IMG/VR virus record: IMGVR_UViG_3300009507_000119
Span: 1-24,796 of that record
Length of the DNA stretch: 24,796 nt
Source: a virus
Strand: one strand, 5' to 3'
The position numbers were made by a program, and so were the translations under genes. Below the pieces are notes generated by a model that worked only from the letters and a program-made list of their open reading frames with translations, did no database searches and was not told the origin of the DNA. Below, piece by piece: positions 1 to 16,226 of the stretch (the first letter of the stretch is position 1; each line of letters begins with the position of its first letter).

Positions 1-221
1 ATAATAGGATCACCAAAGTTTCCACAAAAGTAAAAACCATTTATTTGTTCAAGTACATCTATTGATAATATCTTTTTAAAATCTTCTAATGTCCAGTCAT
101 TGTTTTTGATAAGAGGATTTTCAAGTCCCCCATGATAGTTTCTACTACACATTGGACAACTTGCTTGGCAGCGATTTGTAATTTCTAAGTGTATATCTTT
201 TAAATCACTAAAACTAAACAT
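1..221 (-). CDS. Radical SAM enzyme, 3' end cut by window edge
   Basis: This is the N-terminal 73 residues of a radical SAM protein; the rest lies beyond the window edge. The core cluster motif CxxxCxxC is visible at Cys18, Cys22 and Cys25 (context TNRCQASCPMC). It would bind the 4Fe-4S cluster that cleaves S-adenosylmethionine. Near residue 66 a CGNFGDP segment occupies the place of the usual GGEP SAM-binding motif. The ATG at 221 is preceded by AGG eight bases upstream and overlaps the end of the methyltransferase gene by 8 bases, so it is probably translated from the same message. The substrate cannot be inferred, and any C-terminal SPASM or twitch domain would lie outside the window. The family assignment is firm; the function is unknown. 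Confidence 0.88.
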   Translation of the reverse strand, partial: MFSFSDLKDIHLEITNRCQASCPMCSRNYHGGLENPLIKNNDWTLEDFKKILSIDVLEQINGFYFCGNFGDPI

Positions 222-819
222 TCTTTTTACCTATTATCATATAACGATCATATTTTGGCATATCGAGTGTTCCCCTGTAATAGGGTTTTATTTTACTCAT
301 ACGGGTAAAGTCATCTAAATCTGTACTGCATCTAATATGTTCGTCTAGATCAAAATAGTTATTGCTTTGTAGTACAATTAGTGCATTGTCAGGTTGATTA
401 TCTAACCATTGATCGTATTGCTCTTGTGTTATGTGTTCACAACTTGTATTAATTACAACATCTGCCCCTGTAACGTACTTACACATGTCATGTGTAACAG
501 CTTCAAATTTACCTAACATTTCATAACGCTTGTTTACTGTGTTTGCTATATCTTCGCACACAGGGTCTATATCCACGCTTGTAATGCGTTTTAAAGGTAG
601 GCGACTGTTAAACAGTATACTTGCCAGCACTCCGTTCCAACCACCGTATATAACTATATTATTCTTCTTTGTTTTGGATATTGTTTTATATAACTCGGTT
701 GCTAGCCATACTTTACTGTTTACTTGCCCTTTCCAAAAACTTTCAAGTGTGCGATATTGATCATCGCTATTGCGGATTGCATCCATCCAAAATAATACGT
801 CTTGTATATCAATTTTCAT
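214..819 (-). CDS. Class I SAM-dependent methyltransferase
   Basis: This 201-residue protein has the hallmarks of a Rossmann-fold methyltransferase. A glycine-rich motif I (VIYGGWNG) lies at residues 56-63, an acidic motif (VDIDP) at 82-86 that would hold the SAM ribose, and an aspartate at 111 in the motif II region. A strand-4 motif, VINTSCEHI, follows at 122-130. I recall the TSCEH motif from methyltransferase-like proteins of marine myoviruses, which is memory rather than a search. An AGG precedes the ATG by about seven bases. The gene overlaps the radical SAM gene on either side, by 11 bases upstream and 8 downstream, so it probably works in the same pathway. The acceptor (sugar, peptide or small molecule) cannot be read from sequence. 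No DNA-methylase catalytic motif such as DPPY is present. Confidence 0.8.
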   Translation of the reverse strand: MKIDIQDVLFWMDAIRNSDDQYRTLESFWKGQVNSKVWLATELYKTISKTKKNNIVIYGGWNGVLASILFNSRLPLKRITSVDIDPVCEDIANTVNKRYEMLGKFEAVTHDMCKYVTGADVVINTSCEHITQEQYDQWLDNQPDNALIVLQSNNYFDLDEHIRCSTDLDDFTRMSKIKPYYRGTLDMPKYDRYMIIGKKNV

Positions 820-1798
820 ATTTTACCTTTGGTATTTTGCTATCAGCACTACTTACACAACTAGGAGTAATACACTTAGATGGTGCTTTAAACAGCTCAA
901 ATCCGCCGTCTAACGTGCCTAAGGGTTCGTCATGGCAACTATAGCTTCGCTTAACTTCGTTCTCACGTATAACACATCCTTGGTATCCTGCATTACATGT
1001 CCAACCTTTAAACTTGTTAAAGCCAAATGCGTTAAACCGTTCTGCTTGATCTAACTCGTAAGTTACTCCTTGAGCATCTTTGAGTTCGATTTGAGCGATT
1101 GTTTCGCCTTGGATTTGTTGCGGGAATCCGGTTTGCATTCTTGTGATCTGGTCTTCACTATATCCATGTACCACGTAGGAGGCGGTTGGATCGGACTGGG
1201 GCTTGAGAGTGACGTTAATACCTCTGGTGGCAAATCGTTCAAGCCTTTCGTAAAGATCTTCAAACATTTCTGGAACCATAACTTGATTAATCGTAACATG
1301 TACACCTGCTTTCATAAGTTGAAGACATTTGTCTCCAAACTCTTGTTCATTAGCAAACTCTGCGTGATAGCTTGCTGTAATACTTCTACGCTGAAGTTTG
1401 CTTGTTGATTCTATCCATCTATTCCACCATTTGCTCCCAGGAGACAAATTAGTAGTCATATGTATACTTTGATATTTAGGATCGCTATCATTACAATAAT
1501 GATCAATAACATCTCCAAAGTATTTATATGCTGTAGGTTCGCCTCCACTAAAACTAAAATGGAAGTCTGTAAACCCGTTTGCGCGAGCCTGTGCTTTGAT
1601 ACTATCTATGGTCTTTAAGTACAATTCTAAATCCTGATGGTCAGGGGTACTAGATCTAGCGTATGGCCAGCAATAACTGCATGAATAATTACAAAATCTA
1701 GCCAGGATCCACGAAACCGTGAAAAGATGGCTCTTTAGGAGAGTTTTCTGGCCAAACTCAGTAATATTATCCCAGGGTATGTTTTGAAAATTGTTCAT
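809..1798 (-). CDS. Radical SAM protein with C-terminal cysteine-rich (SPASM/twitch-like) tail
   Basis: This is a 329-residue radical SAM enzyme. The core CxxxCxxC motif sits at Cys36, Cys40 and Cys43 (FCNYSCSYC), and FSGGEPT at residues 83-89 is the SAM-binding motif. The C-terminal part carries cysteines at 268, 275, 288, 309 and 314, a spacing that could hold an auxiliary Fe-S cluster as in SPASM or twitch proteins. The layout is therefore the classical one, catalytic barrel first and auxiliary domain last, unlike the three enzymes encoded between 5211 and 10619. The gene starts inside the end of the glycosyltransferase gene (32-base overlap) and runs 11 bases into the methyltransferase gene. 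No good Shine-Dalgarno site is visible, so translational coupling is likely. The substrate is unknown. Confidence 0.9.
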   Translation of the reverse strand: MNNFQNIPWDNITEFGQKTLLKSHLFTVSWILARFCNYSCSYCWPYARSSTPDHQDLELYLKTIDSIKAQARANGFTDFHFSFSGGEPTAYKYFGDVIDHYCNDSDPKYQSIHMTTNLSPGSKWWNRWIESTSKLQRRSITASYHAEFANEQEFGDKCLQLMKAGVHVTINQVMVPEMFEDLYERLERFATRGINVTLKPQSDPTASYVVHGYSEDQITRMQTGFPQQIQGETIAQIELKDAQGVTYELDQAERFNAFGFNKFKGWTCNAGYQGCVIRENEVKRSYSCHDEPLGTLDGGFELFKAPSKCITPSCVSSADSKIPKVKYEN

Positions 1799-2453
1799 AT
1801 AACCAATCGAAGTCGTTAATTAATTTTAACTTATCTGGTGAATTGATAGCACTATAACCAAAGTCGCGGCCATTGCAAGCACCACGAATAGCGTATTTTC
1901 CAAACAGTGAATCTGATCCCAGTTCGCACCAGGTCTTAAGTCTTTGTTCTGTTTCTTCATCATTTTGTCCTTGTATTGTTTTACTTGCTAATTTAGTGCA
2001 TTCTCTAAATGCACCCTTCCAGGCTTCAAACTCACTTGTGTTAAATGCTGTAACATTTGATATGTCTGGCATGGCTTTAAAATATGTACTAATACTAGTA
2101 GTCATATCTGTCTTAGTAAGATCCATATTTATTGTAAGTTTCCTCGGAAGTAGTTTTACACCTCCGTAACCATAAACTAAACCATTAATAGGATTGCTAC
2201 TACGCCATACATGCACAGTTTCTAAATCATACTCATCAACTTTATAATCAAAATTAAATGTATCAAGTATCTGTGCATCAGCATCAACTACCCAAAACAT
2301 TTTAGTAAAACATTTCTTAGCAGCAACAATGTGCGCCTGATGTATACCTTTAACACCGTCAACACGTTTTGCTCTAGGAAATCTTGACTTTAGTTGTTGC
2401 CAATTTTCGTCTGCGTTTGTTTCATTATAACTTATGAAGACAATATCATACAT
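1767..2453 (-). CDS. GT-A-like glycosyltransferase with DAD motif
   Basis: This 228-residue protein begins with a short beta-strand (DIVFISYNE) and has a DxD-type metal and nucleotide-sugar motif, WVVDADA, at residues 54-60. It resembles the 296-residue protein encoded at 10616-11506. Shared features are the opening segment (IVFISYNETNA versus IIFLSYDEPNA), an AKRV-plus-GV stretch, the DAD motif, and a later NGLxYGxGGxK segment that could bind acceptor or sugar. Both are probably GT-A fold transferases using NDP-sugars, though no retaining or inverting mechanism can be assigned. It is the first gene after a consensus sigma70 promoter whose -10 box ends only six bases from the ATG, and no ribosome binding site is visible, so the message may be leaderless. 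It overlaps the following radical SAM gene by 32 bases. Confidence 0.68.
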   Translation of the reverse strand: MYDIVFISYNETNADENWQQLKSRFPRAKRVDGVKGIHQAHIVAAKKCFTKMFWVVDADAQILDTFNFDYKVDEYDLETVHVWRSSNPINGLVYGYGGVKLLPRKLTINMDLTKTDMTTSISTYFKAMPDISNVTAFNTSEFEAWKGAFRECTKLASKTIQGQNDEETEQRLKTWCELGSDSLFGKYAIRGACNGRDFGYSAINSPDKLKLINDFDWLYEQFSKHTLG

Positions 2454-2459
2454 GCTACT

Positions 2460-2487
2460 ATTATACTACCTTTTTATTTTTTGTCAA
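2460..2487 (-). promoter_or_regulatory. Consensus sigma70 promoter inside a gene end
   Basis: On the minus strand TTGACA (2487-2482) is followed by a 16-base spacer and TATAAT (2465-2460), both perfect hexamers. The -35 box lies in the last codons of the radical SAM gene (2474-3469), and the -10 box lies in the 20-base gap before the next ATG at 2453. The expected transcription start falls at or next to that ATG. This is a sequence match only. Confidence 0.75.
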
Positions 2488-3469
2488 CCATAAAATCACG
2501 TAAACTAAAGTTTGTACCTAACATATGATCTGTACTTGCTTTTTTGTCGTTGCTCCAAACTAGTACTTCAGGATCTTCATATAAAAAATCACAATTTTTA
2601 CAATAGTCTATACTATCAAAGTCTTTCATTTCATGTGCTTTACGAAGTTTGTTGTATTCGTCTCCGTACCATATTTCTTCTATAGTTTGTACTTGTGTAT
2701 GTCCTAGTACACTTTTACTTTCATTAGGTGGTCCCATTGTTTGACAGCAAGGAGTTACAGCACCTTTTAATCCTCCAATGCCTCCTGAACGTATTGTAAT
2801 CTCTGGAGCAAATGGTCTGCCGCATGTTCTACGCTTACTAGGGTCACGTACATACAATGGTTGGTAGTTGCCGCTCCAGTTGTGCATTTTCCATATGTAT
2901 CCTATTGTACCTGTAGGACCTATAAAGTTATTTCTGTATTGATCAACTTCGTATTCAATTTGATTGTTATCTAATATTAAATGGTAACTGCTTATTTCGC
3001 ACTTACTGTTAGTTTCTTTGATATACTGTTTTGCTTTGATTACATTTGTTTTTAGTAGTTCAAAATTATCAACGGCCATCCATTCTTTATATTTTTCTTT
3101 GTCATAGCCTATACAACTAAATCTTGCAAAACTAAGTCCTGCATCAATACAGTCCTGCATAAAGTGTCCGCTAAAGAAACTTCCGTTGCTGTACATAAAA
3201 CTAGGCAAGCCGCGCTTGGTACACGCTTCAATATAACGTGGTAAGTCCTTTGCCATTGTTGGCTCGCCTGATCCTTCTAAGTTGATCACAGGCTTACCAG
3301 GTAACTGATCTAAAATGTTTTCAAACATTTCAAACGGCATCTTACGAGTCCACTCTTTACCTCTTCCAATAGTCTGTGGACACATTTGACATTTGTAATT
3401 ACAGCCGCCAAATACTTCGACTACTGCACGTTCTAAATCAGGTACGCTCATTGTCCCCACTTGTCCCAT
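2474..3469 (-). CDS. Radical SAM/SPASM protein
   Basis: This is a 331-residue radical SAM enzyme with a C-terminal SPASM-type domain. The core cluster is at Cys23, Cys27 and Cys30 (GGCNYKCQMC). The SAM-binding motif reads EGSGEPT (65-71) instead of the usual GGEP. Candidate auxiliary cluster ligands are Cys216, Cys241/242, Cys290 and Cys293, the last two as CKNCD. The TIEEIWYGDEYNKLR stretch before them is typical of SPASM proteins. A second start at Met7 (position 3451) forms an ATGA overlap with the upstream stop codon and follows a GGGG run, so it is a credible alternative to the ATG at 3469. The family acts on peptides, sugars or other substrates, so the substrate is open. The gene end carries the -35 box of an internal promoter. 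Confidence 0.9.
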   Translation of the reverse strand: MGQVGTMSVPDLERAVVEVFGGCNYKCQMCPQTIGRGKEWTRKMPFEMFENILDQLPGKPVINLEGSGEPTMAKDLPRYIEACTKRGLPSFMYSNGSFFSGHFMQDCIDAGLSFARFSCIGYDKEKYKEWMAVDNFELLKTNVIKAKQYIKETNSKCEISSYHLILDNNQIEYEVDQYRNNFIGPTGTIGYIWKMHNWSGNYQPLYVRDPSKRRTCGRPFAPEITIRSGGIGGLKGAVTPCCQTMGPPNESKSVLGHTQVQTIEEIWYGDEYNKLRKAHEMKDFDSIDYCKNCDFLYEDPEVLVWSNDKKASTDHMLGTNFSLRDFMVDKK

Positions 3470-4413
3470 ATATCTGTAAGAAGATTAACATAATGTTCAT
3501 CGTTGTGTCTAAAATCATATTCTATTCTTTTGTTATTGTACTCAATACTATAAAAATCTGTATACTCTTTAAAGAACTCTCGTGCTTCTAAGTCAGGTAA
3601 GTTTTGTATTTTTCCAACTGGAGCATATCCAAGTGCTAGTTGTTCATCTTTAGGATCAACACCCTTTGACTCTAACCAACTTGTAAACTTATCGTCTGAT
3701 GGTAGTTCATATCCTGTACCAAAGTAAAAATTAAATTCACCGCTAATTACACGATGTTCGGAAATACCATCTGCTGTGACTACATCATCATTATCAAGAT
3801 ATGCTTCGTACCAAGTTTTACCTGTTTGTGCGTAATGCAAATATACCATACCGTCTTCAACATCTTTAGTAAATTGCTTTTTAAACTTTGGATCTAATTC
3901 AATGCGTTCCTGTATGCCTAGTAGATTATAATAAAAGTAACCATTCCGATATCCGTCTGCTTCTATAGCTGTTGTTTCGTACCATGCCTCAAGTTCGTGA
4001 CAGCAATGATTTAAATAACAAATTGCCAATCTAGTTTTTCCGTTAGCATTTGCTAGTACACTACTAGGGTTCCAAAGTTGCCCTTGTGCTGTTTCAAAAT
4101 GATGATGAAGTACGTTTAATAACTCTTGATCACAACTATAACGCAATGCATCAAAGTTATCTGTAATTTTATAGTCTGAATAATAATTTATAGTTGCAAT
4201 GCTTCTGTCTAAGTCATCACAAATATGTTCTACTGTTCGATAGTCGTTATGAACTCCTAACAAACTAAAATTTTTTTGAAATATCTTTTTTTGATGTGTT
4301 TCTAGTAGCCTATCAAATTGTGCTAACCATACGTTTGCTAACTCACTATCGTCTGGTTTGATATGAATATGTTTCACTTCATCTTTGACATTTCTAAACC
4401 CAAGCTCTATCAT
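3448..4413 (-). CDS. Uncharacterised 321-residue protein of the radical SAM cluster
   Basis: I do not recognise this protein. It is soluble-looking, acidic and rich in Tyr, His and Asp, with no signal peptide or membrane segment. The middle part has clustered aromatic and polar residues, including LNVLHHHFETAQG near residue 105 and a His/Cys-rich LNHCCHELEAWYE near 140. The second half has ISEHRVISGEFNFYFGTGYE near 215 and a charged C-terminus. The histidines and acidic residues could bind metal, but no known catalytic motif can be named. The ATG at 4413 has AAGG about six bases upstream. It overlaps the SGNH gene by 20 bases and the SPASM enzyme by 22 (or 4 from Met7), so it is probably co-translated with them. 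It could be an enzyme of the pathway or a partner or substrate protein. Confidence 0.75.
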   Translation of the reverse strand: MIELGFRNVKDEVKHIHIKPDDSELANVWLAQFDRLLETHQKKIFQKNFSLLGVHNDYRTVEHICDDLDRSIATINYYSDYKITDNFDALRYSCDQELLNVLHHHFETAQGQLWNPSSVLANANGKTRLAICYLNHCCHELEAWYETTAIEADGYRNGYFYYNLLGIQERIELDPKFKKQFTKDVEDGMVYLHYAQTGKTWYEAYLDNDDVVTADGISEHRVISGEFNFYFGTGYELPSDDKFTSWLESKGVDPKDEQLALGYAPVGKIQNLPDLEAREFFKEYTDFYSIEYNNKRIEYDFRHNDEHYVNLLTDIWDKWGQ

Positions 4414-5224
4414 GGAATGCCTTTATAATTTGCTCTGCATGTGCCGCCTGAGACTTTGGACCTGGGTGCATTTTATCTCTTGCACACTTGTCATCAATAT
4501 TTGGAAAGGGGTCTATAGTGTTATTAGGAAATGCTTCTTGACAAAATTCATTTTGTGGGTGGTCCCAACTTGACAAAATTAGTTTTATTCCTTTATATTT
4601 TGCTATATCATATATCCAGTTTATAGATGTTGCTGCTCTTACAATATAGTAGTCTTCATCTAATGATGTTAACAAGTTAGACATTTTTTCAAAACCGTTA
4701 TGCGGATAATTCGGTATTAAGTTTATCATAGTTCCATACGAATCCATATGTAATTGTCTGTGCCACCCAGGCAAAGTAACAACAGCATATTCAAAGTCTA
4801 TTAACGAAGTTGCTGCGCTAAATAATCTTGCAACACGTTCAACTCCGATACCTGCAGAACCAAAATTAAACGGATTTAAATTTAATTCTTTACTTACAAC
4901 GTCTACAAAAGTATCTTCTTGTTTTATTCCTTCGCCAAATGTAAAACTACAACCAAAAAAACCTATATTTTGTTTGTTAGATGTTAGATCCCAATTATTC
5001 CTAAAGTTATATTGTCCTATGTTATAAGACCACGGATCTTTTTTAAAACCGGCAAGCTCAGAATCTTGAACAGTATCTATCGTAACAGAGTCGACACCAT
5101 CTTTAAATCTAATATTATAACTTTTTTCGCTAAAAAACCCAAAAGGTATTAAGTCTTCAATACACTTAACCTTAGAAGGCATTAGCTTTGTATAAGGTTT
5201 TAATTGTTGTCTACGAAGGGGCAT
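4394..5224 (-). CDS. SGNH/GDSL-type hydrolase or acyltransferase
   Basis: This 276-residue protein shows two SGNH family signatures. The nucleophile block is FFGCSFTFGEG at residues 89-99, with candidate catalytic Ser93. The C-terminal block is DKMHPG at 250-255, with candidate Asp250 and His253. A block II-like FGSAGIG lies at 121-127; a canonical block III GxND is not evident. Such proteins hydrolyse or transfer acyl groups, often O-acetyl groups on glycans. There is no signal peptide, so it should act in the cytoplasm. It sits among radical SAM and glycosyltransferase genes and overlaps them by 14 and 20 bases, which favours a role in decorating a sugar polymer. An alternative start is Met15. 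The fold is fairly secure; the substrate is inferred from context. Confidence 0.8.
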   Translation of the reverse strand: MPLRRQQLKPYTKLMPSKVKCIEDLIPFGFFSEKSYNIRFKDGVDSVTIDTVQDSELAGFKKDPWSYNIGQYNFRNNWDLTSNKQNIGFFGCSFTFGEGIKQEDTFVDVVSKELNLNPFNFGSAGIGVERVARLFSAATSLIDFEYAVVTLPGWHRQLHMDSYGTMINLIPNYPHNGFEKMSNLLTSLDEDYYIVRAATSINWIYDIAKYKGIKLILSSWDHPQNEFCQEAFPNNTIDPFPNIDDKCARDKMHPGPKSQAAHAEQIIKAFHDRAWV

Positions 5225-6482
5225 TATTAAGTTCCGGGTTTAAAGCAAAAACATCAGTACCTCTAATATCATCTATCTGCTTTGATTTCCATTTAAACTG
5301 TTTCCATAGATAACTATTATCATGTTGATACATAAAGTCTATAATATTTTGCCAACCACTGAATGGTATTCCTGTATCAGCTTCTAACTTCTTACCATAT
5401 TTTGTAATCTTGTCAGCTGCTTGCTCTTTTAATAATTCAGGTAATACAGTAATACTATAATACTCAGGAGTAAACAAAGGGTTAATATGGAATCTGTCAA
5501 CCCAATAGTTTTCCATAAAAAATCCACGATGTGGATGAACTGATTCTAAAGGCATTAAATCGTTTATGTGCAATTCATGATGTAGTTCAGTAAGTCTAAA
5601 TATATTAAGTATACTAACAGTAGGATGAAACCAATAATCAACAGCACGACTAGCTCTAATCTTTTTAAGATTTTCTAGTGTTTGATCCCATTTACCTTTA
5701 TAACGTATATGTTCAAAAGCATCTCCTTCGCCGTCGATACTTATACTTAGATGAACATAATCAAATTTCTTCCACATTTCCATTACGTCTTGCTTTTTTG
5801 TACCAAGTGTTGTGCCGTTTGTACTGTAACGTAACGCAATGTCGTATTTTTGTTTTTCGTCTAGCATTTTAAGAATGCGCCAATGCTCAGGCATAATCAA
5901 GGGCTCGCCACCTGCAAAATGAATTTCTTTCATAGTGTCAAGATTTTCTTCAATGTCTCCCCAAAATACATTTGCTTCTTTTAGATCAATAAGTTGAGTT
6001 TCACTGTACTTGTCTGCACCAGGATGTAATTTTTGAAAATCCTTTGACCACTGTGTACTAAACAAAGGCGAACATGTTGTACATGCAAGGTTACAATAAT
6101 TACTAAATCTAAAATCCCAATACTTTAACTGTAATTCTGAAAGTGTACCATCTTCAGATGTTTTTGCAATTAAATCTTTTGTTTCATCAAACCATTTAGA
6201 ATTTAATCCAGTACGCATAGTATTCAGATTATTTTGTTGTTTTGAAACACATCGTTCACAAGCACTAGGTAAAGGCTTGCCATCTAACATATCCTTTCGC
6301 ATTTTCTTAGCTTTAGGACTATTAACAATATCTATTAATTTTTCATGTTTAACATTTCCAAAACTATTTTCTTCACGCAACGGAGTTTGACAACATGCAA
6401 AAGATCTTCCGTCATTGATAACATGCAAGTGCATCCAAGGTGCAACACAAAAATTAGGGCTATTTTTTAAATCATCATTCAT
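5211..6482 (-). CDS. Radical SAM protein with N-terminal auxiliary (twitch/SPASM-like) domain
   Basis: In this 423-residue enzyme the auxiliary domain comes first. Cys12 (FCVAPWMHLH), Cys30/31 (FACCQTP), and Cys75 and Cys78 (SACERC) form an Fe-S binding pattern usually seen after the catalytic domain. The radical SAM core follows with CxxxCxxC at Cys130, Cys134 and Cys137 (YCNLACTTC) and the SAM motif HFAGGEPL at 188-195. The order matches proteins that databases call twitch domain-containing radical SAM proteins. The C-terminal 100 residues are rich in Trp and Lys and lack cysteines. It overlaps the SGNH gene by 14 bases and the gene upstream by 8. It is a distant relative of the two enzymes encoded at 7805-10619. 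The substrate is unknown. Confidence 0.92.
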   Translation of the reverse strand: MNDDLKNSPNFCVAPWMHLHVINDGRSFACCQTPLREENSFGNVKHEKLIDIVNSPKAKKMRKDMLDGKPLPSACERCVSKQQNNLNTMRTGLNSKWFDETKDLIAKTSEDGTLSELQLKYWDFRFSNYCNLACTTCSPLFSTQWSKDFQKLHPGADKYSETQLIDLKEANVFWGDIEENLDTMKEIHFAGGEPLIMPEHWRILKMLDEKQKYDIALRYSTNGTTLGTKKQDVMEMWKKFDYVHLSISIDGEGDAFEHIRYKGKWDQTLENLKKIRASRAVDYWFHPTVSILNIFRLTELHHELHINDLMPLESVHPHRGFFMENYWVDRFHINPLFTPEYYSITVLPELLKEQAADKITKYGKKLEADTGIPFSGWQNIIDFMYQHDNSYLWKQFKWKSKQIDDIRGTDVFALNPELNNAPS

Positions 6483-7830
6483 ATTTCATCTCACTAAAGA
6501 GTTTTTCAAATTTTCGTCCATGTTTCATATTAAAAAACTTCTGTTTATTTCTATCCATATAAGGTATTAATTCTTCTACTTTATCTTGTATTTCTCTTTC
6601 ACTTAACTGTGCCATATTACTTAGATTATCACACATTAAACTAACTTTATTAGGAGTCTTTGAAACTCTATCATAAAAGTGGTTGGTAATTGGTGTAGGA
6701 AGAAAGTATCCTTCACCGCTTACATGTCCCATTGTATTTAAACATCCGAGCGCCATGAATGGGTGCCCTTTGGCTATTTGTCTCCAAATACCTAGACCCG
6801 GAGCACACACATTAATTTCATCTAAGTATTGTTTGTTAAACATGGGCGAAAAAGAACCACTAACAACTGTTATAAGGCTGTCTTCATAATACTTTTTATT
6901 AAAATCTAATGGACGTCTATTAATTGCATCTAATGTGCTATCAAGGCATTTCTTAAATATTAAACTATTAATTATTTCCTTCTTTTTATTAATGTATTCA
7001 ATGCTTTGATTTTTATCAATTATTCTAAAATTATCATAACTTTTAGGTTTTAAGTTATTAGACAAGTTATAACTATATTCTCCGTAAGAATCAAGCTCTC
7101 TATATATTAGTTCACTAATAAATGCTGTATTGTGTAATGCTGTATTTCCGGTAAGAGCTGTAAATATGTGCTTAGGTTTCCAATTTTCAAATTTAAAGTT
7201 TTCTTTTTCAAATTGATCTTCATTTAATTTTAAAAATGTTGGGTTTCTAAAAACCCAGAAATAATCTTCTTCACCATATCTACTTTTGTATGCTAATTGT
7301 GCATATATTTGCCACCAATCAATACCGTATACATTTGGATTGTCAAAGCATTTTCTATAGGATCTACTTACATCGCCTAATACAATATAAATCTTATCTC
7401 GTGTAACACCCTTGCTACCTAATGTATCGAGTTTTGTTCGTAGTTTCCACATAACATTAAAATCATAAGACAGAGTTGGTGCGAAAATTAATAATTTCAT
7501 TTTTCCTTTTCTAATCCTATTTAAAGATTTACTAGGAATGTAATCTTCAAATTCAGCATTATACCAAGAAGTGCCTCTACTTAATTCTAAAGGATAAAAT
7601 AAATTCTTTGCCTTTTCGCCGCCCGAGAATAGATTAACCCGTTCTACGTTTAATACTTTTAATGTATTAAATAATACTGTAATAGCATTAATTGGTGCTG
7701 TTTTAGATTTACTTATAGGAGTTCTATGAATATCGTTACTAAATCTATAAGAACTTACGCCGTTAGGAACTGGCATATTGTCTATAATTTTATCATAATA
7801 TAAATTAATCGTAGGACGCAAGTGGATCAT
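6475..7830 (-). CDS. Uncharacterised protein, possibly a divergent glycosyltransferase
   Basis: This 451-residue, lysine- and asparagine-rich protein has no signal peptide or membrane segment. Two stretches recall a family of phage proteins annotated as glycosyltransferase-like. One is HIFTALTGNTALHNTAFISE near residue 222; the other is IWRQIAKGHPFMALGC near 349, which resembles the KPI..GHPFI..G motif of that family. The resemblance is from memory, so function is tentative. An in-frame TTG lies directly before the ATG at 7830. I chose the ATG because GAGG lies seven bases upstream of it and TTG starts are rarer. It overlaps the upstream radical SAM gene by 26 bases and the downstream one by 8. 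It could equally be an unrelated accessory protein of the radical SAM enzymes. Confidence 0.6.
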   Translation of the reverse strand: MIHLRPTINLYYDKIIDNMPVPNGVSSYRFSNDIHRTPISKSKTAPINAITVLFNTLKVLNVERVNLFSGGEKAKNLFYPLELSRGTSWYNAEFEDYIPSKSLNRIRKGKMKLLIFAPTLSYDFNVMWKLRTKLDTLGSKGVTRDKIYIVLGDVSRSYRKCFDNPNVYGIDWWQIYAQLAYKSRYGEEDYFWVFRNPTFLKLNEDQFEKENFKFENWKPKHIFTALTGNTALHNTAFISELIYRELDSYGEYSYNLSNNLKPKSYDNFRIIDKNQSIEYINKKKEIINSLIFKKCLDSTLDAINRRPLDFNKKYYEDSLITVVSGSFSPMFNKQYLDEINVCAPGLGIWRQIAKGHPFMALGCLNTMGHVSGEGYFLPTPITNHFYDRVSKTPNKVSLMCDNLSNMAQLSEREIQDKVEELIPYMDRNKQKFFNMKHGRKFEKLFSEMKYE

Positions 7831-9253
7831 CAATATTCCTCGAGTCGGGTTTCAATATCCACCCTTCTTTTTCAGCAAGTTCCATAATACTTGCATCAGT
7901 GTCTGGAATACTTTCAACCCAGTCTGTTAGTATTTTAGGAAATACACTTAGACTTTTGTTTCTACGTACATCATACTGTTGGTAGAATGTTTTAAAGTCA
8001 CGCCATAGCGTAGTAGGATTACTTGTGCGCCTATGCGGAGCATCTACTGTAACTAAGTAATCTATTAAACGTTCAATACTTGCCTTTTCAAACTCGTGCC
8101 AACCAATATCATCTTTGTGCGCCTCCCACCATGTACTAAATTGATTATGCAAATAATCTTTAATATGGTTAGGTAGTGCTAATGGACTTTGAAAACTTGG
8201 AAAACGTAATAAATTTAAACTTACTGTTGGTGTTCTGCTTTGTGTAAGTTCTTTTAGTTTATACACTTCATCTAAAAAATCAGTAATACTAAACAAGCAC
8301 AAGCTATTAATGGTCATCATAATGTTAATACCATTACAGTTACCTTCTACTAACATACGCTTAATATTTCTAAGCCACTGTTCATAATCTAAACCGTCAC
8401 GAATGTATTCTGCTTGTGCGCCGGTTGCTTCGCAACTAGTATACAAGTCAAAATGTTTCATACCTTGAGTTTTTAGAATTAACTTATCAATGATGTCATC
8501 TTTAGCAATTAAATTACTATTAATAGCAAATCGCATATCAGTTTCTTGCTCATTAAACCAATCAAATAACTTCCAAGTGTTTCCGCTCATCAAAGGCTCA
8601 CCGCCTGTAACACGTAGTTCTTCTAAACTATCTGCTAAGCCGCTATCCCACCATTTCCAAAATGCTTGTATGTATGGATTATCTTCATCATTTTTGTAAG
8701 GCTGTGTCCAACTACCGTCTTGCTTAAATGCACCAGCACCATCACTTACTAAGTTTGTGTACTCGCCGTTCTTCTTAATGTCTTTAGCCCAAGTAGTTGA
8801 GAAACTTGCATTACAATAACTACATGCTAAGTTACACGTTCTGTCAAACGCAATTTCAAACGTTTTAAGATTAGTATTGTCGTCTGCATCGGCTTCATAT
8901 GCTTGCTGTAACTGTTCGTCTGAATAGATAATACTTTTAAAAGTCCTGTCGCTAACAGCATCTTTTTTCATATCTTCCATTTTCCAACAATATTCACATT
9001 CACTAGGACGCTCGCCTTTTTGCATCATACGCCGCATTTCTTTTTTATGCTTAGTATTATGAATTGCAGACGGGTTATCCTGTACTTCAACTAACGGAAT
9101 TTGATGTGCTGGCGGATGATGACAACTAGCTGTTGTTCCACTACCTAACCAAGTAGTAGCATTGTACCATTTAGCACCACAAAAACTTTTGCTTTTGCTA
9201 TCTAATACTCTATCACGATATTGTTGCAGATTTTCTTCAGGCTTTTTCGGCAT
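7805..9253 (-). CDS. Radical SAM protein with N-terminal auxiliary domain, paralogue A
   Basis: This is a 482-residue enzyme. The N-terminal domain has cysteines at 25, 44, 86 and 89 (the last two as SECEYCW) plus a His-rich SCHHPPAHQIPL segment, likely ligands for an extra Fe-S cluster. The radical SAM core has CxxxCxxC at Cys140, Cys144 and Cys147 (TCNLACSYC) and the SAM motif RVTGGEPL at 214-221. The product of the neighbouring upstream gene (9237-10619) is clearly homologous along its whole length, with the same N-terminal cysteine positions, so the two arose by tandem duplication. This copy has a longer C-terminus. AGGA lies five bases before the ATG, and the gene overlaps its paralogue by 17 bases. 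The pair may act in series or as a heterodimer; no substrate can be named. Confidence 0.92.
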   Translation of the reverse strand: MPKKPEENLQQYRDRVLDSKSKSFCGAKWYNATTWLGSGTTASCHHPPAHQIPLVEVQDNPSAIHNTKHKKEMRRMMQKGERPSECEYCWKMEDMKKDAVSDRTFKSIIYSDEQLQQAYEADADDNTNLKTFEIAFDRTCNLACSYCNASFSTTWAKDIKKNGEYTNLVSDGAGAFKQDGSWTQPYKNDEDNPYIQAFWKWWDSGLADSLEELRVTGGEPLMSGNTWKLFDWFNEQETDMRFAINSNLIAKDDIIDKLILKTQGMKHFDLYTSCEATGAQAEYIRDGLDYEQWLRNIKRMLVEGNCNGINIMMTINSLCLFSITDFLDEVYKLKELTQSRTPTVSLNLLRFPSFQSPLALPNHIKDYLHNQFSTWWEAHKDDIGWHEFEKASIERLIDYLVTVDAPHRRTSNPTTLWRDFKTFYQQYDVRRNKSLSVFPKILTDWVESIPDTDASIMELAEKEGWILKPDSRNIDDPLASYD

Positions 9254-10619
9254 TCCATTCCTCTATTAGATTAGCAAATTGCGGAAACGTTTCTACAAAA
9301 TCTTTATCTCTTCTCTTGTCGTATGCATGTATGTATCTTACAAAGTCAGCTCTGTGTTCTATTGCTGGCTCTGTATTACGTAAATAATCACATAACCTTT
9401 GTATTTGATCAAATTCTTCCAAATAAAGTCTAGCGTATTTTTCTTTCGTATAATATTTTAACCATTGTTTACATACATTTTCAATTGTATTTGCTGTTTT
9501 TGTTCGATAATCAATATCAAGCAGCGTACACTGTAAATGTGGTGGCCAATGCATTATATTAATACTTAGTGGTATTCTGTTAACTTCAAAACTTTTATTA
9601 TACTCTTTACGGAAATCCATTACAGTCATTATAAAGTCTAAAAAGGAAGGCAAACTTAAAATGTTTATAGTTGTCATCATTGCAACTGTACTGTTAGTTT
9701 CTTTTAATATTTTATCTACATTTTTAAGCCATTTATAAAAGTCTAAGCCGTCACGGGCATATTCAGCTTGTGCGCCTGTACTTTCTAAACTAGTGTATAC
9801 ATCAACCTTTACGCCTACTTCAGCAAGTTGGTTAACTTTTAAAATTAGTTTGTCAATTAACTTATCTTCAACACACCCGTTGGTGTTAATTGATATGTCT
9901 AAACCCTTGCGTGGATTTTCAATAAGATAGTCTAATAACTTCCAAGTATCTTTTGACATAGTAGGTTCGCCACCTGTAATACGCAATACTTTTAAATGAG
10001 GTAGTGCATCAGGAAACCATTTCCAAAACGCCTCAACGTATGGATTATGTTCTCTATTCTTGTAAGGCATTTTGCCAGACTTTTCTAAATAGTCTAAATT
10101 ATGTGAACCATGTGTAGTTGGATACTCTCCGTTTTGTTTTATATCTTCCATCCATTTACTACTAATCTCAGGTGAACAATATGCACACGCAAAATTACAC
10201 GCATTACTAAATGAAACTTCTAAGTAACTTGGATACACATTGTCTTGCCAGTTACTCTTAGCAATGTCTTCGAATTTATCCCACGCCCAAGTGTCGCTTG
10301 TTTTATAAATTCTGTCACTAAAATAGTCTTTATCTAAATCTTCAATCTTCCAGCAATATCCGCATTCACTAGGGCGGTTGCCTTCTAGCATCATTTTACG
10401 CATTTTCTTTTTGTGTCTACTATTATGTAGTGCCGCAGGATCAGCTTCTATCTCTTGTAATGGAATTTTATGCGGAGCAGGATGATGACAACTATGATTG
10501 TAACCATTCTGTAATAGTAGCGTAGTTTGTAACCATTTAGCCGTACAGAATGAACAACTTACATTGTTAATTTTCTCACGCTTTTCTTCTAGTATTTTTA
10601 TACGCTGTTCGTTACTCAT
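9237..10619 (-). CDS. Radical SAM protein with N-terminal auxiliary domain, paralogue B
   Basis: This 460-residue tandem paralogue of the next gene downstream has N-terminal cysteines at 25, 44, 86 and 89, at identical residue numbers, with an extra Cys22. SCHHPAPHKIPL and RPSECGYCWK are shared with the sister protein. The catalytic core is at Cys141, Cys145 and Cys148 (CNFACAYC), with ITGGEPT at 214-220. Further shared blocks are NPYVEAFWKW near 192 and TGAQAEYARDGLD near 286. The start codon overlaps the glycosyltransferase stop as ATGA, typical of coupled translation. Sequence divergence between the two copies is substantial while cluster ligands are kept, so both are probably active with different roles. 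Substrate and reaction are unknown. Confidence 0.92.
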   Translation of the reverse strand: MSNEQRIKILEEKREKINNVSCSFCTAKWLQTTLLLQNGYNHSCHHPAPHKIPLQEIEADPAALHNSRHKKKMRKMMLEGNRPSECGYCWKIEDLDKDYFSDRIYKTSDTWAWDKFEDIAKSNWQDNVYPSYLEVSFSNACNFACAYCSPEISSKWMEDIKQNGEYPTTHGSHNLDYLEKSGKMPYKNREHNPYVEAFWKWFPDALPHLKVLRITGGEPTMSKDTWKLLDYLIENPRKGLDISINTNGCVEDKLIDKLILKVNQLAEVGVKVDVYTSLESTGAQAEYARDGLDFYKWLKNVDKILKETNSTVAMMTTINILSLPSFLDFIMTVMDFRKEYNKSFEVNRIPLSINIMHWPPHLQCTLLDIDYRTKTANTIENVCKQWLKYYTKEKYARLYLEEFDQIQRLCDYLRNTEPAIEHRADFVRYIHAYDKRRDKDFVETFPQFANLIEEWNAEKA

Positions 10620-11506
10620 CTAGTTCTAATAATCCTTGGAGTGTTTTGATAGACACTCTTAAAAAATTTACTCTGTTCTGGATCTAATGGCTTGGTTGAA
10701 ATATCAACTCCTGTTCCTTTTAATATCTCAAAACCCAAGTTTTCAGCTGTTTCAGTTGGATCTATATCTTTTACTTCTGTTTCCCAAAAGTTGTTTAGCC
10801 ATTCAAAGTCACGTACATTAGCATAGTCCCAAGGTGTACAGTTTGTTAGATAGCATCCTTGTCGTGCGCCTAATATACTCCATATACCATTTTTAACGTC
10901 TGCACCTACTTGACTCCAAATAAGCAAACGTTGATAATTTTGCCACCACACTTTACGTAAATCTTTTGTTTTAGATCCTTGATCTAAACTCATTTTGACG
11001 CCTTCTCTAAATCCAGCTCGCCATGCCTGCCACGGTGTTGCATTAGTATAAGAAGTGCTGAAGTTATCATTGAACTGATAGTACTTGTCATCAAAACAAA
11101 ATTCTACTTTACCACGGTCGTCACCTTCTTCTGAGTGTTCATGCGTTTTCATATTGTGTACAAACTTACGTGTCCACATTTTTAATCCGCCGTTGCCGTA
11201 CATTAGTCCGTTAACATGCAACTTGCCACACCAACTAAACACATGCTCTGCTGATAGTCCTAATGCTTCGTAGTCAACTACTTGGTTTAGAAACTCTGGA
11301 TCAACAATGTTGTCTGCATCTACAGTAACAAAGTATTCTGTTTCACTTAGATCAGCACACGCTTTATGTGCGGCATCTGATCCTTCTACTCCATGTACAC
11401 GCTTTGCCCACGGAATCTTACTACACAAATCTGCATAGTTCTTTTCTGCATTTGGTTCGTCATATGACAAAAAGATAATGTCTTGATCAACTACATTAAT
11501 ACTCAT
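10616..11506 (-). CDS. GT-A-like glycosyltransferase with DAD motif, longer paralogue
   Basis: This is a 296-residue homologue of the protein encoded at 1767-2453. The opening strand DIIFLSYDEPNAE is followed by WAKRVHGVEG and the DxD motif TVDADN (61-66), which would bind a metal-NDP-sugar complex. An NGLMYGNGGLKMW block follows near residue 104. Relative to the shorter paralogue it has about 65 extra C-terminal residues. A strong AGGAGA ribosome binding site lies four bases before the ATG. The gene overlaps its neighbours by 4 bases on each side (ATGA junctions), so it is part of a coupled operon leading into the tandem radical SAM pair. The transferase class is supported by motif and neighbourhood; donor and acceptor are unknown. 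Confidence 0.7.
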   Translation of the reverse strand: MSINVVDQDIIFLSYDEPNAEKNYADLCSKIPWAKRVHGVEGSDAAHKACADLSETEYFVTVDADNIVDPEFLNQVVDYEALGLSAEHVFSWCGKLHVNGLMYGNGGLKMWTRKFVHNMKTHEHSEEGDDRGKVEFCFDDKYYQFNDNFSTSYTNATPWQAWRAGFREGVKMSLDQGSKTKDLRKVWWQNYQRLLIWSQVGADVKNGIWSILGARQGCYLTNCTPWDYANVRDFEWLNNFWETEVKDIDPTETAENLGFEILKGTGVDISTKPLDPEQSKFFKSVYQNTPRIIRTR

Positions 11507-12081
11507 GATGTCTCCTGAATGTGATAATAGTTTTCGAATACTTTACCACAGTATAAACTCACATCAGAGGTTTGGGCAACCTCTTTATCTTGTTCTATCA
11601 TATCAAAACTTTCTGTATACAAAATATTATACATCTTTACATCAATTGTATCCAACAATACTGACGGATTATCTTTTTTTGTAACATAAATTGTTTGATG
11701 TTTGTCTTTATAATACAATGTACTTGTTAATAACTCCCTAAGTTCATTAGTTAAACTTATATTCCAAGTAGCCGTTTTTAAGTTTTGTTTAATTATAAAT
11801 GCGTTATTACTTTCAACATTAGTTACTTTTGGAAGATGATGAATACTTTTATCTACATCAAAAGAAGATAGGTCTTTATGCTTAAATTGTATTTGATATT
11901 TTAATTTCTTATCACTAGACGGAATAACCATATGGTCATCCATCTTTTTTGTTTCTGTAGAAAAGTCCAACATTGTCTGTCTGTCGATTTCAAGATAGGG
12001 AGTAGAAGTATCTAACTCATTAGTTACTTTCCAAATCTCTCCTGTTTCGTCTTTAAAATTAAGGTAAAATTTTAGTTCCAT
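11503..12081 (-). CDS. Uncharacterised 192-residue protein
   Basis: I do not recognise this protein. It is predicted to be mostly beta-strand: many alternating polar and hydrophobic stretches such as LKYQIQFKHKDLSSF and TIYVTKKDNPSVLLDTIDVK, and only one cysteine (near residue 178). No signal peptide or membrane segment is seen. It could be a carbohydrate-binding or virion-like beta-sandwich protein, or a partner of the flanking glycosyltransferases. It lies between a GT8-like transferase and the DAD transferase, overlapping the first by 23 bases and the second by 4 (ATGA). The position inside a tightly coupled operon says it is expressed with the cluster; its role is unknown. Confidence 0.7.
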   Translation of the reverse strand: MELKFYLNFKDETGEIWKVTNELDTSTPYLEIDRQTMLDFSTETKKMDDHMVIPSSDKKLKYQIQFKHKDLSSFDVDKSIHHLPKVTNVESNNAFIIKQNLKTATWNISLTNELRELLTSTLYYKDKHQTIYVTKKDNPSVLLDTIDVKMYNILYTESFDMIEQDKEVAQTSDVSLYCGKVFENYYHIQETS

Positions 12082-12898
12082 TTTCCATCTTCTTTAATAA
12101 TTCATCTGTTAAAAACTCATCTTCTACATAGTGTAACACTCTTGTTTGTAGATAGTTTCCTAAAAATAGTTTCCCTTCAGTAAAATATCTTCCTGTAACC
12201 TTTGTCCATTTTTCAGGCTTATTATACCAACCTTGGACAATTGGTTTCATGTGTGTAAAAGTAACAAAACTATTAGGATCGGTTATATCATTTTCATTGC
12301 CTAAAATTTTACTAGCAATAGCTACTGATACATCTATACTACACCATTTTTGATATTCGTTAGGAGCATACTTAGAATAAAATAATGCCCAATTGTTTAC
12401 AATAATCTCAAGTAAGTTATAAAACTCTTTTGCTGTATCACCTTTTTTAAAATAATGCAATGCACTATATAAGTTAGGTAAATTATTTGCATCAAAAGTT
12501 TTTCTATAATATCTGTCTGTAATTAATTCATCTCTATAAGTTCGTACATTACTTACAAAAAATAAATCTCTTTTTTCTAGCTCTTTCCACCAATGCGTTA
12601 TATCAGAAGTAAACATCATATCGGCCTCTAATACAATAGTTTCATCATACGGACTAGCATGATATACTTTCCATCTGTTTTCTATTTTCCAATCGCTTTC
12701 TTCTGCACTATCAGTCCATGGTATAGGAATAATTTGATCAAATACATTTTGCCATTCATCTGGTACATTGTCATTAGTAATTAAACTAATTTTTTGATCT
12801 TTATTATACAAGTGCAAACTTAGCGCAAGAGCATATGCTTGGCGCACATAGTTTGTCTTAGAATTATTTTGTGCTAATAGACAAAAACCTTTATTCAT
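12059..12898 (-). CDS. GT8-like glycosyltransferase, paralogue 1
   Basis: This 279-residue protein begins with MNKGFCLLAQNN, a strand-loop that in GT-A enzymes contacts the nucleotide. ASPYDETIVLEADMMF (81-96) gives an ExD variant of the DxD metal motif at Glu91-Asp93. It is homologous to the 286-residue protein encoded just upstream (MTKGVLLFAQNN, TPFEETIVMDTDF). Both have an LHYFKKGD or VFYFKKSD block and a similar late LGNYLQTRVLHY or WIGHYHAG segment. The glutamate in the metal motif is unusual and may change metal or donor use. GAGGA lies eight bases before the ATG, which overlaps the upstream gene by 8 bases. It is probably a cytoplasmic transferase using a nucleotide sugar; donor and acceptor are unknown. 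Confidence 0.7.
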   Translation of the reverse strand: MNKGFCLLAQNNSKTNYVRQAYALALSLHLYNKDQKISLITNDNVPDEWQNVFDQIIPIPWTDSAEESDWKIENRWKVYHASPYDETIVLEADMMFTSDITHWWKELEKRDLFFVSNVRTYRDELITDRYYRKTFDANNLPNLYSALHYFKKGDTAKEFYNLLEIIVNNWALFYSKYAPNEYQKWCSIDVSVAIASKILGNENDITDPNSFVTFTHMKPIVQGWYNKPEKWTKVTGRYFTEGKLFLGNYLQTRVLHYVEDEFLTDELLKKMENGTKILP

Positions 12899-13751
12899 TT
12901 ACTAAGTCCTCGTCAATAAATCTATCTAATGCAAATTTATTCATAATATGAATGTTTACATCTTTTACGCAACCTGCATGATAGTGTCCTATCCAATGCT
13001 TTTTATCTAATAAAAATGTATAAGTTTCATCATCTAACTTTATTAATACATCAGCATCACTTGTAAACCATAGCCTACCTGGTAAAACTTTTGGCCAATT
13101 AGTTCTTTGAAAACCGTTTAAAATGTGTATTGCAATACTAAATGCAAAGTCATTACGATATGTTTTATTTGCAATTTGATATGTAAGTCTATAGAAGTTC
13201 CAGTTATCTTTAATATGTGTTATAAGATCAAAGAAGCGTTGCATACTATCTGATTTCTTAAAATAAAATACTGTTGCCCAGTACATATCTATACTTCTAT
13301 CACTAATCTTATTGAATCGATATTCGTCTGGACGATCCATATTAAGATCTGTTATATGCCTAAAAATTAAAAAATCTTGATCTGTATCAAATGCATTTAA
13401 TAATATATCATTACCAATAATAAAATCAGTATCCATTACTATAGTTTCTTCAAACGGAGTAATATCATATGCTGTAGCACGATCATGATTACGCCACTCT
13501 AAATCTTTTTTACTCATTGTGCCGTCACGGTATGTACGCTTTTGTAAACAGTCGTACCAGTCTAGCTCTATTACATGACTAATATATTTTTTGTAATAAG
13601 GAAATTTAGATTTAAGATAATCAGAATTATCTGTTGCAAGTGCTACAGGTATTTTAAGATGTTTTTTAATTTTTTTCGCACAAAATATTGCTTGTTTTAT
13701 ATAATCAACTGAGTGGTTGTTTTGTGCAAATAATAGTACACCTTTGGTCAT
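12891..13751 (-). CDS. GT8-like glycosyltransferase, paralogue 2
   Basis: This is a 286-residue GT-A-like transferase. The N-terminal strand is GVLLFAQNN, the metal motif is TIVMDTDF with Asp107 and Asp109, and a histidine-containing C-terminal WIGHYHAG segment near 250 is placed where GT8-type enzymes often have a metal-binding histidine. An NHDRATAYDITPFEETIVMD stretch (88-107) links acceptor-side residues to the DxD. It is a tandem duplicate of the following gene but keeps the canonical DxD. Its ATG overlaps the stop of the 115-residue gene as ATGA, with GAAGG about 12 bases upstream, so translational coupling is likely. It is the second gene after the sigma70 promoter at 14119-14147. Confidence 0.72.
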   Translation of the reverse strand: MTKGVLLFAQNNHSVDYIKQAIFCAKKIKKHLKIPVALATDNSDYLKSKFPYYKKYISHVIELDWYDCLQKRTYRDGTMSKKDLEWRNHDRATAYDITPFEETIVMDTDFIIGNDILLNAFDTDQDFLIFRHITDLNMDRPDEYRFNKISDRSIDMYWATVFYFKKSDSMQRFFDLITHIKDNWNFYRLTYQIANKTYRNDFAFSIAIHILNGFQRTNWPKVLPGRLWFTSDADVLIKLDDETYTFLLDKKHWIGHYHAGCVKDVNIHIMNKFALDRFIDEDLVNE

Positions 13752-14111: not shown

Positions 14112-14128
14112 ACTATATATTATATAGT
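14112..14128. repeat. Inverted repeat over the promoter -10 region
   Basis: ACTATATA and TATATAGT flank a single central base, giving perfect 8-base arms. The dyad covers the -10 box (14124-14119) and the predicted transcription start of the accessory operon. It could be an operator or a small RNA hairpin, but all-AT arms of this size can also arise by chance. Confidence 0.45.
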
Positions 14129-14147
14129 CTAAAGAACTATTTGTCAA
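14119..14147 (-). promoter_or_regulatory. Consensus sigma70 promoter of the accessory operon
   Basis: On the minus strand TTGACA (14147-14142) is followed by a 17-base spacer and TATAAT (14124-14119): perfect hexamers at the optimal spacing. It sits in the 55-base gap between the last structural gene and the 115-residue gene, with a start site expected near 14112 and GGAGA at 14105-14101 before the ATG. Such a promoter would be read by unmodified host RNA polymerase, so the operon should be expressed early in infection. Confidence 0.88.
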
Positions 14148-16218: not shown

Positions 16219-16226
16219 TATTTATA
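16219..16226 (-). promoter_or_regulatory. T4-type late promoter (perfect octamer)
   Basis: TATAAATA on the minus strand is the exact late promoter octamer of phage T4 and its relatives, recognised by the phage late sigma factor with the sliding clamp. It lies 29 bases before the ATG at 16189. The TAA stop of the upstream gene (16224-16222) forms part of the octamer. Confidence 0.8.

Follow-up and report, generated by a model that had tools for sequence, protein, structure and literature searches.

A recurrent block of radical SAM and glycosyltransferase genes in T4-like viruses may encode an early glycan-tailoring pathway

The virus fragment IMGVR_UViG_3300009507_000119, analysed here over its full length of 24,796 bases (the window), carries behind its tail and baseplate genes a block in which genes for radical S-adenosylmethionine (SAM) enzymes are interleaved with genes for glycosyltransferases (Table 1). 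The block genes all lie on the minus strand and overlap, and the only gaps, of 55 and 20 bases, each hold a predicted promoter. No capsid gene is present in the window, which has a weak baseplate match in PHROGs and homology to cyanophage baseplate proteins. Open reading frames (ORFs) were called mechanically in the scripts used throughout.

Table 1. Genes and promoter motifs of the modification block, in order of transcription on the minus strand (aa, amino acids; dN/dS, ratio of nonsynonymous to synonymous substitution rates).
Feature	Positions	Strand	Basis or remark
T4-type late promoter motif TATAAATA	16219..16226	-	29 bases before TF6a
TF6a, tail-fibre-like, 309 aa	15260..16189	-	family common to the loci; dN/dS 0.16
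TF6b, tail-fibre-like, 368 aa	14151..15257	-	family common to the loci; no PHROGs or Pfam match
P1, candidate sigma-70 promoter, TTGACA-17-TATAAT	14119..14147	-	12/12; in the 55-base gap heading the modification genes, before F13
F13, 115 aa	13748..14095	-	between TF6 and GT8
GT8-like glycosyltransferase 1	12891..13751	-	alignment A3 against glycogenin
GT8-like glycosyltransferase 2	12059..12898	-	alignment A3
F14, 192 aa	11503..12081	-	between GT8 and GT1 in 44 loci
GT1, GT-A-fold transferase	10616..11506	-	invariant DxD; alignment and predicted model
R0a, N-twitch radical SAM	9237..10619	-	NF033640, 321 bits; TGGEP
R0b, N-twitch radical SAM	7805..9253	-	NF033640, 301 bits
F15, 452 aa	6475..7833	-	among the fastest evolving of the block; dN/dS 0.39
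R4, N-twitch radical SAM	5211..6482	-	NF033640, 368 bits; invariant C12, C31, C75, C78, C130, C134, C137
SGNH-type hydrolase, motif level	4394..5224	-	invariant GCSxTxG and RDxMHxG (alignment A6, four rows)
F18, 321 aa	3448..4413	-	highly conserved; dN/dS 0.07
R23, radical SAM with C-terminal SPASM	2474..3469	-	PF04055, 42.4 bits; SPASM, 38.9 bits; GSGEP
P2, candidate sigma-70 promoter, TTGACA-16-TATAAT	2460..2487	-	12/12; -10 box ending 6 bases upstream of the second GT1 start (ATG)
GT1-2, second GT-A-fold family member	1767..2453	-	33% identical to GT1
R9, radical SAM, twitch-like	809..1798	-	PF04055, 41.1 bits; four invariant C-terminal cysteines (alignment A10)
MT7, class I methyltransferase-like, motif level	214..819	-	Rossmann-motif GW and DID invariant in alignment A5
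R5, radical SAM, truncated by contig end	1..221	-	complete in contig G001 (locus L009)

An earlier note on this DNA had reported six radical SAM genes with a CxxxCxxC core, five of them with GGEP-type SAM motifs, and that count stands. Profile searches recover the five complete genes, whose products all carry CX3CX2C together with TGGEP, TGGEP, AGGEP, GSGEP or SGGEP. The 73-residue stub of the sixth, R5, has no match in PHROGs or Pfam; its complete copy in G001 encodes 359 amino acids, matches Radical_SAM with an E value of 7.6e-12 and reads GNFGDP where the others have GGEP. Four of the five complete proteins pass the Pfam Radical_SAM cut-off. R0b scores 22.4 bits there against a cut-off of 29.5 and reaches 301 bits against the cut-off of 170 for NF033640, the N-terminal-twitch family, whereas R9 and R23 fall below the latter. 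Among the NCBIfam matches listed, none of the five reaches the cut-off of an equivalog model, and a reading of these genes as housekeeping radical SAM enzymes is rejected on that basis. R9 is 57% identical to a chromosomal protein of the Bdellovibrionia.

These motifs are more than chance, since CX3CX2C is kept in 123 of 124 radical SAM proteins of at least 280 residues from related records (90 of these also have a loose GxGE pattern) and dN/dS is low in the window's five genes. Nine aligned N-twitch proteins all share GGEP, the core cysteine triad and four cysteines ahead of it (C12, C31, C75 and C78). Profile positions 12-96, at the N-terminal end, correspond to the auxiliary domain of BtrN, which in BtrN itself is C-terminal. 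The window genes are thus members of the radical SAM superfamily, and [4Fe-4S] binding and SAM cleavage are predicted for their products.

The neighbouring genes named in the earlier note fare unevenly. Its glycosyltransferases correspond to two GT8-like proteins and two putative glycosyltransferases of a GT-A-fold family, and the SGNH hydrolase and methyltransferase hold at motif level: the former has no Pfam family above cut-off, and MT7 has no Pfam or NCBIfam match over cut-off and no PDB profile match. The GT8-like pair aligns with glycogenin (E 9e-5) over profile positions 16-104 only and lacks a Pfam match. For GT1, the PDB profile search gave a single match (E 0.06), and the predicted model (predicted local distance difference test score, pLDDT, of 86) has GT2-type matches in Foldseek and gives VIA Z 9.9 (root-mean-square deviation 3.3, 138 residues). 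No match to GT8 or GT1 was found in isolate phages. F15, a protein with a putative sugar-transferase look, has no Pfam, NCBIfam, PHROGs or PDB match, and its model, built from an alignment of three rows, has a pLDDT of 39. The label 'tail-fibre-like' for the TF6 genes is based on their position behind tail genes; TF6a, which was searched against PHROGs and not given to Pfam, has no PHROGs match. A simple hydropathy scan found a hydrophobic segment in none of the 25 genes of the G001 block; in other phage records, one or two such segments occur in a small number of genes, some of which are radical SAM genes.

The locus is cut by the end of the window, so that the 'complete' pathway of the earlier note does not apply to this fragment. 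Six further radical SAM genes continue in G001, a near-identical contig of 65.7 kb, where 12 such genes lie within about 18 kb: the part shared with the window is followed by R8, R19 and R33 and then by three convergent radical SAM genes. Five of the 12 proteins are N-twitch in shape; in the other seven the core is near the N-terminus and further cysteines follow at the C-terminus, one of these seven matching SPASM. Pfam Radical_SAM gives 12 matches in G001 (11 among the matches listed). A separate QueE-like radical SAM gene, recognised from its N-terminal sequence, lies outside the block (G001:49628-50527, L101). Within it, R0b of G001 has an in-frame stop (16386-17375, L099) and R8 is split (L009:17334-18759); both interruptions are possibly sequencing errors, R0b being intact in the window.

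Viral contigs were scanned twice, with 21 and 70 loci recovered. Dereplication by contig only (6 of 91 dropped) left 85; many are truncated, and several (such as L037, L044 and L057) are probably one phage from different samples. Among these 85 IMG/VR loci, adjacent pairs recur as TF6-F13 in 57, F13-GT8 in 58, GT8-GT8 in 59, GT8-F14 and F14-GT1 in 44 each, GT1-R0 in 61 and R0-R0 in 71. The locus therefore has a fixed backbone, TF6-F13-GT8-GT8-F14-GT1 and the R0 pair, followed by variable radical SAM cassettes, and this backbone is conserved across contigs from different metagenomes. The claim that a virus carries a modification locus of many radical SAM genes with glycosyltransferases is in this way borne out, and the recurring order rules out an assembly chimera.

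The block genes are under purifying selection. Between the window and the related record G012, dN/dS is 0.05 to 0.15 for the five complete radical SAM genes, and the fastest genes of the block are F15 (0.39), MT7 (0.31) and the SGNH gene (0.29). Degraded paralogues are ruled out by these low values.

Long relatives of the window are T4-like. Of 33 related records, 16 have the major capsid protein Gp23: seven of the eight IMG/VR contigs above 100 kb (the exception is G008, 102 kb), 7 of 23 shorter ones and both Vibrio phages; it was not found in G001, a fragment. Whole records hold 12 to 20 Radical_SAM matches in 10 of 19 cases and 3 to 6 in the other nine. NF033640 is above cut-off in all 20 related records tested versus none of 14 named control genomes, with 4 to 21 matches per phage record.

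The distribution of promoter motifs divides the locus. The motif TATAAATA, which we take to be the core of the T4 late promoter, occurs only twice in the window, below the 5.0 expected. In the IMG/VR loci it stands before 27 of 55 first TF6 genes, 0 of 38 second TF6 genes and 0 of 407 radical SAM starts; elsewhere it precedes fam22, the family just before the tail-fibre-like genes, in 10 of 21 cases, GT1 in 1 of 97 and the SGNH gene in 1 of 41. Sigma-70-type sites with at least 11 of 12 consensus positions, in contrast, are present ahead of F13 in 43 of 58 loci, with 31 distinct sequences, and ahead of the second GT1 in 30 of 36 (30 of 34 under a stricter rule), with 20 distinct sequences. By the same measure, control counts were 5 of 1231 random 80-mers, 0 of 238 radical SAM starts outside R0, 2 of 169 R0 starts and 4 of 202 other starts. 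On this distribution, a simple late operon spanning the entire block is rejected. Given the late motif at TF6 and the sigma-70-type sites at F13 and the second GT1, expression of the tail fibres looks late and that of the modification genes early, from promoters of their own. The long relatives G002 and G003 hold 26 strong sigma-70-type sites; besides the counterparts of P1 and P2, several precede by eye replication or early-type genes (AAA ATPase, QueE), and others precede unknown genes. At the second GT1, 27 of 30 loci have a -10 box that ends 5-7 bases ahead of the ATG, and in 6 of the 26 strong G002 and G003 sites it ends as close to a start. Such short spacing suggests leaderless early mRNAs.

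The same modules are found on chromosomes of Bdellovibrionota, a phylum that includes predatory bacteria; the virus-only character that the earlier note had given the gene set is thereby lost, and a phage-only gene set is ruled out. GT1 was found in 18 of 290 Bdellovibrionota genomes, a draw centred on a genome known to match; none of 398 Pseudomonadota, 296 Bacteroidota or 8 further genomes from other phyla has it. R9 is present in 17 of the 290, and both genes occur in 14 (Fisher p 8e-18); as to the query alignments, three of the searched genomes are in A10 and one is in A9, and these match by construction, whereas A2 consists of phage sequences only. R9, R8 and R5 lie close together in seven regions (G032, L140, G123, G151, G231, G251 and G308). 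A 936-kb contig of G032 carries 11 radical SAM genes together with GT1, MT7, SGNH-like, PP-loop and pyridoxal phosphate (PLP) genes in about 27 kb.

A tree of 83 rows connects the enzymes themselves. Of 43 phage N-twitch proteins, 41 have as their closest bacterial row one from the Bdellovibrionota, a phylum that supplies 17 of the 32 listed bacterial rows; permutation by locus gave a mean of 14.3 and reached 41 in none of 2000 rounds. The tree was built by a quick method and has long branches. Its phage rows come from six of ten phage stretches (330-540 residues, core motif beyond residue 90), and its bacterial rows are among the matches listed in one genome scan, taken with their flanks.

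Several chromosomal modules of R9, R5, R8, MT7 or R0-R0 adjoin genes for GT2, DegT aminotransferase and GDP-mannose dehydratase. Pfam confirms GT2 neighbours at L225, L144 and L140 and both DegT aminotransferase and GDP-mannose dehydratase at L144; L225 also holds a flavin amine-oxidase-type enzyme with a weak match to UDP-galactopyranose mutase. A small protein of about 160 residues, hydrophobic by eye and usually followed by a larger hydrophobic one, adjoins chromosomal modules (L202:1923-3285, L227:18248-19682, L228:14555-15845 and L229:16817-17335); the pair, which may resemble SdpA/SdpB, has no Pfam or NCBIfam match.

One Bdellovibrionota contig, from genome G199, repeats the phage order. 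After a pheT-like gene come R8, GT1 and R9, then TF6, F13, GT8, GT8, a gene without profile match in the F14 position, GT1 and radical SAM genes. Its tail-fibre-like TF6 gene (L224:1388-2314) makes G199, itself part of the query alignment, the only one of the 290 genomes with TF6. The late motif is absent and sigma-70-type sites reach at most 10 of 12 positions. Other phage genes were not recognised in the 28 kb examined, but as the contig ends directly after the block, the phage insert may be longer. The arrangement fits gene transfer between a phage of this kind and the G199 lineage.

We therefore favour, at a probability of roughly 0.4, a reading in which the block encodes an early-expressed glycan-tailoring pathway whose product is placed on the host envelope, the hosts most likely being Bdellovibrionota. 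That a glycan is tailored at all, whatever its acceptor, we consider probable. A glycan pathway is the best reading because sugar transferases are part of the block and homologues stand among sugar genes; the envelope is put forward as its target because the promoters are of early type and several chromosomal homologues lie in polysaccharide loci. Early in infection, the transferases would build up a short cytoplasmic glycan, or the activated precursor of one. Each radical SAM enzyme, using a SAM-derived radical and usually an auxiliary [4Fe-4S] cluster, would then alter one sugar position, with oxidation, epimerisation, deoxygenation or C-C bond formation as candidate chemistries, and the methyltransferase and SGNH enzyme may trim or cap the glycan. 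Host export proteins would place the product on the envelope, changing the cell surface and, for example, excluding competing phages. The fuller proposition, that T4-like Bdellovibrionota phages rewrite the host surface by an early pathway of 12 to about 20 radical SAM genes homologous to polysaccharide loci of the host, is more doubtful. To our knowledge, such a pathway would be the most radical-rich glycan pathway known.

Several observations weigh against this envelope reading, in which product, substrate, timing and host are all predictions. No flippase, polymerase or ligase membrane protein was seen in the phage block, and the place of the locus behind tail-fibre-like genes also fits virion decoration. 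Glycosyltransferases and nucleotidyltransferases score alike among the fold neighbours of GT1; its invariant DxD favours a glycosyltransferase. In the G006 stretch two radical SAM genes have the late motif 0 and 6 bases ahead of them, and in G003 the R9 gene has a sigma-70-type site of its own, so that the two-promoter scheme is not universal. The bacterial genome scan has homologues in several phyla among the matches listed, those outside the Bdellovibrionota being mostly solitary, and GT1 occurs in few of the Bdellovibrionota genomes searched. By eye, no polysaccharide neighbours accompany G036 C1, L145 or most of L233. Gene exchange with Bdellovibrionota is, moreover, no proof of infection.

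The acceptor could instead be the virion. The GT8 pair and GT1 would then glycosylate TF6, and the radical SAM enzymes would tailor that glycan, perhaps giving host-surface mimicry or altered adsorption. The near-invariant unit TF6-F13-GT8-GT8-F14-GT1, which includes TF6 in the single block on G199, speaks for this possibility, as does the lack of hydrophobic segments in the G001 block proteins; peptide and protein glycosyltransferases among the fold neighbours of GT1 are a weak hint in the same direction. Yet the modification genes have early-type promoters of their own, apart from the late motif of TF6, and the chromosomal copies lack TF6 everywhere save on G199. We regard virion decoration as a serious but somewhat unlikely alternative.

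The radical SAM enzymes might also modify a peptide or protein in the manner of ribosomally synthesised and post-translationally modified peptides, with the transferases glycosylating that peptide as in glycocins. SPASM and twitch families include many peptide modifiers, a further point against envelope glycans, and R23 has a SPASM domain; small signal-bearing ORFs were noted by eye near two chromosomal loci (L228 and L229). A peptide product is less likely because the overlapping genes and short gaps of the window block leave no room for a short precursor gene, although a large or distant substrate could escape this argument. All peptide-maturase models are far under cut-off for the five complete radical SAM proteins among the NCBIfam matches listed, and several chromosomal copies stand among sugar genes. 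Peptide maturation is accordingly improbable.

A general iron-sulfur (Fe-S) or other metabolic auxiliary function in support of the host is more improbable still. A T4-like virus with 12 radical SAM genes has been tied to Fe-S assembly genes in the published account of it (PMC5332604), but of the 33 related records, which are mostly fragments, only 2 have the carrier PF01521, a finding that rules out an Fe-S scaffold partner as a rule; the missing equivalog matches and the recurring link with transferases in phages and chromosomes also argue against this function. An artefact, whether a chimera or decaying genes, would account for the interruptions in G001 and can be dismissed, since the same order recurs in many contigs, R0b is intact in the window and dN/dS is low; neither this nor the housekeeping alternative raised in the earlier note holds.

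How the block relates to described systems can now be stated. The virus of PMC5332604, TARA_ERS488813_N000010 (183 kb), is also marine and T4-like and, compared by description, equals G001 in its number of radical SAM genes; the passages of that paper concerning it treat these genes as Fe-S biology and give no gene order, partners, promoters, homologues or function for them. The host-recognition cluster of pelagimyophages, likewise T4-like and marine, is a variable region with tail fibres, GT8 glycosyltransferases and radical SAM cassettes, for which the relevant sections propose O-chain modification of SAR11 hosts (PMC7029224); here, the glycosyltransferase-radical SAM core is fixed, the promoters are of early type and the link is to Bdellovibrionota. 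Enrichment of radical SAM genes is described for Tasman Sea samples in part of a third paper (PMC7150976).

Three window proteins exceed the NF033640 cut-off and keep the auxiliary cysteines of the family, whose name carries no function and for which no paper was found in the open-licence PubMed Central (PMC) literature. The Bdellovibrionota modules (G032, G034, G078, G123, G199 and others) share clustered R9, R8, R5, R0, GT1 and MT7 with the phage block; in the stretches examined, no phage structural genes were recognised, save TF6 in G199. Vibrio phages K566, K567 and F86 also have several radical SAM genes (six Radical_SAM matches in K566, L006, and four in F86, L007), one of which in K566 adjoins a GT4-like gene by eye, but identity is 22-26% and the gene order differs. 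Gtr-type serotype conversion uses the membrane flippase GtrA and the lipid-linked GtrB, and the 25 G001 block genes free of hydrophobic segments set the block apart from it. Like a phage virion glycosylation locus, the block has its transferases next to tail-fibre-like genes. The conserved core, two promoter classes and Bdellovibrionota link were not found in the open-licence PMC literature searched. New here are the fixed backbone, the early/late promoter split and the Bdellovibrionota link; a T4-like virus with 12 radical SAM genes was already known.

These marine viruses are rich in NF033640 enzymes, which here become tied to a fixed glycosyltransferase core, two early-type promoters and one phylum. 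Radical SAM auxiliary genes thereby gain testable predictions, namely sugar substrates, early expression and Bdellovibrionota hosts. Vibrio phages K566 and F86 offer a possible experimental handle. If the envelope-glycan reading is true, it would bring radical chemistry to surface glycans and T4-like phages to predatory-type bacteria.

Phage clusters beyond the window hold further enzyme types. A QueC-like PP-loop gene, a nitroreductase-family gene, a weak PLP-decarboxylase match and a carbamoyltransferase occur across L106 (G003), L108 (G005) and L115:6111-6791 (G012), the carbamoyltransferase gene being present in the G005 cluster; together they are an unusual tailoring set. The G006 cluster (L110-L112) is interleaved, by eye, with genes of the type that serves nucleoside diphosphate-sugar biosynthesis, and the 342-kb record G007 has a set of radical SAM scores matching that of G006.

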